From a bacterium (GTDB lineage: Bacteria > SM23-81 > DAOVCL01): a stretch of 25,312 nucleotides of DNA. The translations under genes were made by a program, and so were the position numbers. The stretch is taken from assembly GCA_029932675.1 (NCBI GenBank), contig JAOZPP010000006.1:1-25312 (forward strand). The letters run 5' to 3'. Shown here piece after piece: positions 24,568 through 25,312 of this stretch (position 1 is its first letter; every line of letters begins with the position of its first letter). The notes beneath the pieces are model-generated. The model was not told the DNA's origin, ran no database searches, and was given only the letters and a program-made list of their open reading frames with translations.

Positions 24568-24609
24568 AAAAACCATAATAGAATCGGTAGCCACAGGCAT
24601 ATGGTTTTT
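24568..24609. repeat. 10-bp perfect inverted repeat AAAAACCATA/TATGGTTTTT
   Basis: Arms at 24568-24577 and 24600-24609 with a 22-nt spacer. A/T-rich and ending in five T on either strand, it could act as a weak bidirectional terminator or be an old element end. Confidence 0.45.
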
Positions 24610-24749
24610 GACAACTTAATTGGGTAATAATTTAGTGAACTCCTTGCTCACAGCACTGCGCATTCGAGAGATCCTCTTCCCCCTTGATGGGGGAGGACTA
24701 AGGAGAAGGCGAAGGTTATGCTTGGTTTGAGCGATGGTAGGAGAGATTT

Positions 24750-24779: not shown

Positions 24780-24971
24780 AGCGGCGGGTCGGGACAAACT
24801 CCAGTCTATTCCTATAGGAATCCGTGAGGCCATAAGCCCTACCAAGAACAAATCCGAATGATCTGCGTTAATCTGTGTCCCATAGAATCTGCCTAAGGGG
24901 AGATTCTCCGTGGGAGATGTTTCCTGATGCCGATAATCAGAGGCAGAAGCCCTGAAAGGGCAAAATTTAAC

Positions 24972-25000
24972 TTGACATGCGATGACTCTGTTACTAAATT
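24972..25000 (+). promoter_or_regulatory. Sigma-70-type promoter for the right-edge gene
   Basis: TTGACA (24972-24977), 17-nt spacer, TAAATT (24995-25000). A start near 25007 would give a leader of about 210 nt before the ATG at 25218, with the structured element inside it. Confidence 0.6.
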
Positions 25001-25059
25001 TGCGTAGATAAAGGATGGACCTTTTGGTATCGCCCATAAGAAGCAGTCCTTTTTCTTAA

Positions 25060-25175
25060 AGAGGGCTTTGCCCTCTAACCTACCAGTAAGAAGAAGGCTG
25101 CTGCCGGTGCCGTGCTTCGGCACGGCCAAGGGGTGGCAGTCATTTATCGGATTTACTGGTAGGTTGCCGATAATG
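25060..25175 (+). ncRNA. Candidate structured leader RNA, possibly a pseudoknotted cis-regulatory element
   Basis: Five helices can be drawn. P0: AGAGGGC/GCCCTCT (25060-25066, 25070-25076). P1: perfect 13 bp AACCTACCAGTAA/TTACTGGTAGGTT (25077-25089, 25153-25165), directly stacked on P0. P2: CTGCC/GGCAG (25101-25105, 25135-25139). P3: GCCGTGC-TTCG-GCACGGC (25109-25126), a stable tetraloop hairpin. P4: CATTTATCGG/CCGATAATG (25141-25150, 25167-25175, one bulged T), whose 16-nt loop contains the whole 3' strand of P1. P1 and P4 must therefore form a pseudoknot or exclude one another. The element lies between a good promoter and the ribosome binding site of an exported-protein gene 42 nt downstream. 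I do not match it to a riboswitch class I know. A palindromic mobile element is the main alternative. Confidence 0.5.
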
Positions 25176-25217
25176 ATATGCGCCCCTTTTTGTTTAGGGA
25201 GGCAGAAAAGGAGTGAG

Positions 25218-25312
25218 ATGATAAGAAGGATAGGTTTGTTGGTAGGGGTGATGGTTACTCTTTTTGTTGGAGGGTTAACCTTTGGGGAGAGCGGGTGGAA
25301 GGGAGATGGGGT
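25218..25312 (+). CDS. Exported protein, N-terminus only (cut by window edge)
   Basis: The first 31 codons of an open frame that continues past the window. AAAAGGAG (25206-25213) lies 4 nt before the ATG. The visible residues begin MIRRIGLLVGVMVTLFVGGL, a clear signal peptide (two Arg, then a hydrophobic core), with probable cleavage near LTFG-ES. Nothing can be said of the mature protein. It is the first plus-strand gene since the sigma factor and is preceded by its own promoter and a long structured leader, so its expression is likely to be regulated at the RNA level. Confidence 0.7.
   Translation, partial: MIRRIGLLVGVMVTLFVGGLTFGESGWKGDG

Follow-up and report, generated by a model that had tools for sequence, protein, structure and literature searches.

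Our analyses indicate, on comparative sequence grounds, that the leader element at 25042-25200 of the window is a real and uncatalogued cis-acting RNA with two alternative states, for which attenuation is the best-supported mechanism. The window is the whole stretch of DNA analysed; it makes up the first 25312 bases of a contig 67237 bases long, and the genome measures 3.03 Mb. The element is probably a transcription attenuator of a family absent from Rfam, most likely one that senses a soluble signal in a riboswitch-like manner. An earlier note on this DNA had proposed a cis-acting RNA with a pseudoknot or a two-state switch, and the covariation of mutually exclusive helices described below supports this proposal. 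The family adds an uncatalogued regulatory RNA to phyla with almost no genetics, and the number of sequences that back its exclusive helices is large enough for direct tests to be simple.

Architecture of the leader

The promoter, the leader and the start codon lie where the earlier note had placed them (Table 1), and a promoter-like pair is found at a comparable upstream distance in many homologues. The downstream gene encodes a secreted protein; its open frame runs beyond the window and has a T9SS-like sorting segment at the C-terminal end. About 100 bases of this gene, just past the window, are masked (L029, about 1313-1412). The folding energy of the 211-nt leader is -89.4 kcal/mol, against -64.7 +/- 4.5 kcal/mol for its dinucleotide shuffles (z -5.5; 0 of 200), and the 111-nt core lies 4.5 standard deviations below its own shuffles of this kind. 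Given this z value and the covariation in homologues, the leader fold goes beyond chance.

The perfect 13-bp P1 stacked on a 7-bp hairpin (P0), and the hairpin with a TTCG tetraloop (P3), both drawn previously from the sequence alone, were found again in our analysis. So was the placement of the P1 3' strand inside the loop of the TTATCGG/CCGATAA helix (PK), and P1 and PK both covary in 43 homologues. P3 is optional across the family, many copies having a short loop instead. The 116-nt segment in which the earlier note had drawn its structure does hold these helices, but the true structure begins earlier, with a helix that had been overlooked, PX, formed by region 1 with the linker and the P2 5' strand at 25088-25102. 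Also absent from that account was an intrinsic terminator, whose hairpin (helix T) spans 25128-25188 and is followed by a U-run. Region 1 has region 2 as its partner in the terminator state, while region 3 can pair either with region 2 (antiterminator) or with region 4 (terminator).

Table 1. Features of the leader locus, with positions in the window
Feature	Positions	Strand	Basis
Sigma-70-like promoter TTGACA-17-TAAATT	24972..25000	+	sequence
Region 1, PX 5' strand AGCAGTCCTTTTTCTT	25042..25057	+	MFE fold of leader to U-run; PX covariation
P0 hairpin AGAGGGC-TTT-GCCCTCT, stacked on P1	25060..25076	+	sequence, fold, covariation
P1 5' strand AACCTACCAGTAA (13-bp P1)	25077..25089	+	covariation
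Region 2, linker and P2 5' strand (P2 at 25096-25105)	25088..25105	+	covariation, fold, region swaps
P3 hairpin, TTCG tetraloop	25109..25126	+	fold, alignment
Region 3, AAGGGG and P2 3' strand GGTGGCAGTC	25128..25141	+	covariation, energies, region swaps
PK 5' strand TTATCGG	25144..25150	+	covariation
P1 3' strand TTACTGGTAGGTT	25153..25165	+	covariation
PK 3' strand CCGATAA	25167..25173	+	covariation
Region 4, terminator 3' arm TGATATGCGCCCCTT	25174..25188	+	covariation, energies
U-run TTTTTGTTT of intrinsic terminator, putative stop point	25187..25195	+	sequence; T runs after CCC in nearly all copies
Shine-Dalgarno AAGGAG of downstream gene	25208..25213	+	sequence
Downstream gene start, signal peptide MIRRIGLLVGVMVTLFVGGLTFG	25218..25312	+	sequence

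Distribution of the family

The window element is the only copy in its own genome. A congener (G001, deposited as Candidatus Zixiibacteriota CSMAG_1030) carries a copy with an 86% identical core, which sits before an unrelated WD40-like lipoprotein-type gene and is devoid of region 1, P0, P1 and PX. From this copy alone P1 would have seemed unconserved, a notion that we rejected when the wider search revealed the copy as the exception. A covariance model of these two copies (R1) picked up strong matches from three other phyla (G349, G220, G211 and G075), and a DNA pattern scan of GTDB genomes gave several copies in Elusimicrobia. With a second model built from ten sequences (R2), the better matches, in small phyla and Elusimicrobiota, had E values of about 1e-29 to 1e-15; covariance-model matches in other phyla ranged overall from about 1e-12 to 1e-29. 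In Elusimicrobiota the element occurs in at least 21 of 340 genomes, with up to at least seven copies per genome, and the family as a whole extends to at least about 30 genomes of five poorly known phyla. These counts are minimum values, and little can be read into absence, as the large searches scored only 7-8 candidates per genome. The final alignment (A7) comprises 47 copies.

Weaker candidates were set aside. The weak R1 matches (L033, L034 and L159-L171) were left unused; L034 is internal to an MscS-like gene, and the similarity of L033 is confined to the 3' hairpin and the Shine-Dalgarno sequence. A locus in Rodentibacter (L178) fitted the pattern by chance, and a 14-base scan of viral sequences was discarded as unspecific, its specific counterpart returning nothing.

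Some Elusimicrobia copies are decayed (L202:629-682, L204:1501-1651 and L205:1501-1647). One of them, before a lipoprotein gene, is without P1-P2 but retains region 1 together with the 3' part of the terminator; of the other two, one ends after the PK 5' strand and one in P3. Elsewhere in Elusimicrobiota (L223:1218-1674), the leader is duplicated in tandem ahead of a response regulator gene.

Covariation and the competing helices

The compensatory changes in homologues that the earlier note had named as a check on its proposal are abundant. Across 43 copies, P1 is paired at 96.4%, and both sides have changed in 10 of its 11 pairs (8 of 11 in the first 10 copies); several pairs display all four Watson-Crick types, with few or no failures. 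The corresponding values are 97.0% and 6 of 9 pairs for P2, 92.5% and 5 of 6 for PK, and 87.8% and 5 of 6 for the PX core. The alignment was made with a model that did not include PK and PX, and shifting partners by 1-3 columns lowers the pairing from 85.5% to 32-52%.

In nearly all copies, region 3 faces a region 4 with a GCGCCCC end right ahead of a T-run. The resulting helix T (7 pairs) is paired at 90.2% with both-sided changes in 3 of 7; this covariation is modest because the pairs close to the GGGG/CCCC core hardly vary. Matched changes in the T arms are nevertheless found (GGGGUGGC/GYGCCCC, GGGCGAUAGUC/GAUUGUCGCCC, UGGCGGCAGUC/GAUUGACCGCCA and GGGGCGUCAGU/UUGGCGCCCC). Swapping regions among copies weakens T, P2 and PX, and for each helix 0 of 2000 permutations reach the observed pairing. 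At the level of sequence comparison, the helices P0, P1, P2, PK, PX and T are shown to exist, and P2 is shown to exclude both T and the PX extension.

The predicted energies are consistent with a balance of two states. When the window leader is cut at the U-run, the minimum free energy (-72.0 kcal/mol) belongs to the terminator state, which comprises PX, P0 and T, the last of these with PK inside it; the P2 state with P1 comes to -64.5 kcal/mol, a value that excludes the pseudoknot. The two states are at most 10 kcal/mol apart in 32 of 40 copies, with a median difference of 2.9 when the ON pseudoknot is uncounted.

Proposed mechanism

Since the pairings 1:2, 2:3 and 3:4 are mutual alternatives, the layout is that of an attenuator, to which the P1/PK pseudoknot has been added. 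Both hallmarks of such a device were found: a GC stem and U-run before the start codon, and an exclusive, covarying antiterminator that draws on the same strand (P2 versus T).

We propose that the polymerase initiates at the sigma-70-like promoter and produces a leader whose four segments compete for pairing. When the switch is OFF, region 1 would pair with region 2 (PX), leaving region 3 free for region 4, and the resulting long hairpin of the intrinsic terminator, which has PK inside it, would stop transcription at the U-run, ahead of the gene. When it is ON, the P1/PK pseudoknot would be formed and P2 enclosed; P2 (2:3) would then withdraw region 3 from the terminator and permit read-through into the gene. 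We infer that transcription is the level at which the switch acts, with a ligand or a protein shifting the balance between the two states. As for the direction of the response, the pseudoknot probably favours the ON state, because P1 encloses P2 and, at its base, rivals PX.

Relation to known systems

In a cmscan of all 4227 families of Rfam 15, no match in the window reached the gathering threshold, and at E values up to 10 the locus gave only chance matches of 11-14 bits. No Rfam match fell on the element in 25 homologous loci either, and the models of c-di-GMP, T-box, HDV-like and other described classes were unmatched by it. A search of open-access papers gave no description of the family.

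The element resembles the transcription-attenuating pseudoknot riboswitches, of which fluoride/crcB is the best-studied case, in that a pseudoknotted sensor precedes a competition between antiterminator and intrinsic terminator. It differs from them by its larger fold, the third exclusive helix PX and a copy-specific P1, in addition to the missing Rfam riboswitch match. With the orphan riboswitch candidates (PMC7266159, PMC11109978) it shares the status of a conserved structured leader found by covariation, but its downstream genes are unusually mixed, its P1 is hypervariable and its phyla are rarely searched.

Downstream genes and the nature of the signal

The start codon usually lies 10-30 nt past the element and is preceded by a Shine-Dalgarno sequence (median distance 15 nt in 17 copies with clear start and Shine-Dalgarno). 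The downstream genes encode secreted or lipoprotein-type proteins, PDZ and PEGA proteins, a HAMP-PAS sensor, an ECF sigma factor and others, as well as response regulators, a PilZ protein and a DNA methyltransferase, the last three named from sequence and not by Pfam search. Because these genes are mutually unrelated and none is ribosomal, the option of a ribosomal-protein-type leader, raised in the earlier note, lacks support. The repeated use within genomes, before envelope, signalling and other genes, points to an intracellular signal and a sizeable regulon. The excess of exported proteins downstream is not significant (10 of 17 versus 16 of 45, p = 0.15). In three copies from different phyla (L188, L210 and L233), the downstream genes open with similar exported domains (DTIFLERGDSIKG, ETIYLKDGKILRG and ETIYFKDGTVIKG), a hint of a shared target.

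The identity of the sensor is the point on which the main alternative departs from the riboswitch-like reading. Strictly conserved single-stranded positions are few, the majority of conserved positions being base-paired in one state or the other. This is below what is usual for a metabolite aptamer, and it would suit an attenuator set by a protein, either an antiterminator gripping P0/P1/PK or Nus factors at a boxA-like site. Such a site, TTCTTT (GTTCTTT), is present within 60 nt upstream of 26 of 50 copies, most often 20-30 nt ahead of region 1; 4.6 would be expected, and 300 Markov controls gave a maximum of 12. With a GTTCTTT-like site preceding the structured leader in many copies, the element recalls the boxA-associated leaders (rRNA leaders, suhB 5' UTR), and NusB/E sites beyond rRNA control genes in other bacteria (PMC5725501). 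However, the boxA-like site is missing from the window copy and from about half of the others, and no gene for an RNA-binding protein was seen linked to the copies. Moreover, the boxA of that study acts on Rho-dependent termination and translation, whereas the terminator here is intrinsic. A protein-set attenuator is thus a possibility that we hold with some doubt, and a riboswitch-like signal ranks somewhat ahead of a protein sensor.

Other explanations of the locus

The element could instead be a stand-alone small RNA, about 200 nt enclosed by its own promoter and terminator, to which the neighbouring genes are incidental. The downstream genes differ between copies, and two copies (L201 and L203) have no gene within 100 nt, so that a stand-alone role is possible for some. 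Most copies, however, have a Shine-Dalgarno sequence and a start codon within 10-30 nt, and several follow another gene and show no clear promoter of their own; the terminator strand also doubles as the antiterminator strand, which a simple small RNA would not need. As a general explanation we regard this as unlikely.

A little less likely still is a mobile promoter-leader cassette, or a structured DNA repeat, spreading with no regulatory function. Three copies of one genome (L197, L203 and L205) share the promoter, the boxA-like site and the leader amid differing flanking genes, two copies of related genomes (L186 and L187) show the same pattern, and the family includes the truncated copies described above. 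Against this, covariation has kept both of the mutually exclusive helices, the placement before start codons is fixed, the window copy is alone in its genome, and plasmids, phages and viral contigs yielded no copy. Identical palindromes at unrelated sites, the observation by which the earlier note would have recognised a mobile element, are not what the genomes contain, as same-genome copies differ in P1 with the pairing kept. A mobile cassette would in any case be compatible with regulation.

We also consider it improbable that the RNA works by processive antitermination of the EAR or put kind, in which a folded RNA modifies the polymerase. The combination of a boxA-like site with a pseudoknotted RNA at the head of the transcript, and the very long gene included in the downstream operon of the window, speak for it, but the family brings along a terminator of its own that competes directly with P2, and its downstream genes are mostly short.

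Ribosome-dependent attenuation of the trp or his type is very improbable: the four segments with 1:2, 2:3 and 3:4 pairing, the U-run after segment 4 and a UAA often within region 1 (CUUAAAG) recall those attenuators, but no conserved upstream frame with a ribosome-binding site ending in region 1 was found among the copies, region 1 is constrained by its pairing with region 2, and a pseudoknot domain lies between the segments.

The hypervariable P1

Within the attenuator, P1 presents a puzzle, as the RNA preserves nearly all of its other helices and yet rewrites this one. We compared copies, two at a time, whose remaining sequence agrees to at least 72%. In these comparisons, the five middle P1 pairs are replaced on both sides at 54% (same genome) and 46% (different genomes), as compared with 2-8% for P0, 1-3% for P2 and 10-19% for P3; for same-genome copies, the values of P0 and P2 are 1-2%. 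For example, L198 and L207 are 97% identical elsewhere, while their P1 reads TATTAGG/CCTAATA in the one and TCTGAAG/CTTCAGA in the other.

It is conceivable, though we think it rather unlikely, that P1 is a private address of each leader, rewritten fast by paired changes and serving for self-only folding or for copy-specific partners in trans, among leaders of one regulon that are otherwise alike. As the divergence is not clearly higher within a genome, insulation between paralogues is not demonstrated, and the nearly constant P1 of one Elusimicrobiota group (L217, L218, L221 and L228), which includes two copies of one genome, counts against a simple insulation rule. If P1 were such an address, an RNA switch common to many leaders, each with its own lock on the pseudoknot, would represent a new design principle for an RNA regulon.

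Repeats and motifs near the leader

Upstream of the leader, 24593-24731 is a dispersed repeat with seven more copies of 76-85% identity in the same genome, and 24803-24899 belongs to another dispersed type, similar to several places in G001 (78-95% over 37-97 bases). The motif GCCGATAA occurs twice near the leader (24929-24936 and 25166-25173), and its genome-wide count of 120 is 1.7-fold that of the reversed control (69); GCCGATAAG lies upstream of the G001 copy. We rejected GCCGATAA as a sigma-28 -10 element at the leader, where it is half of a covarying helix. At other places, it is possibly a sigma-28-type element.
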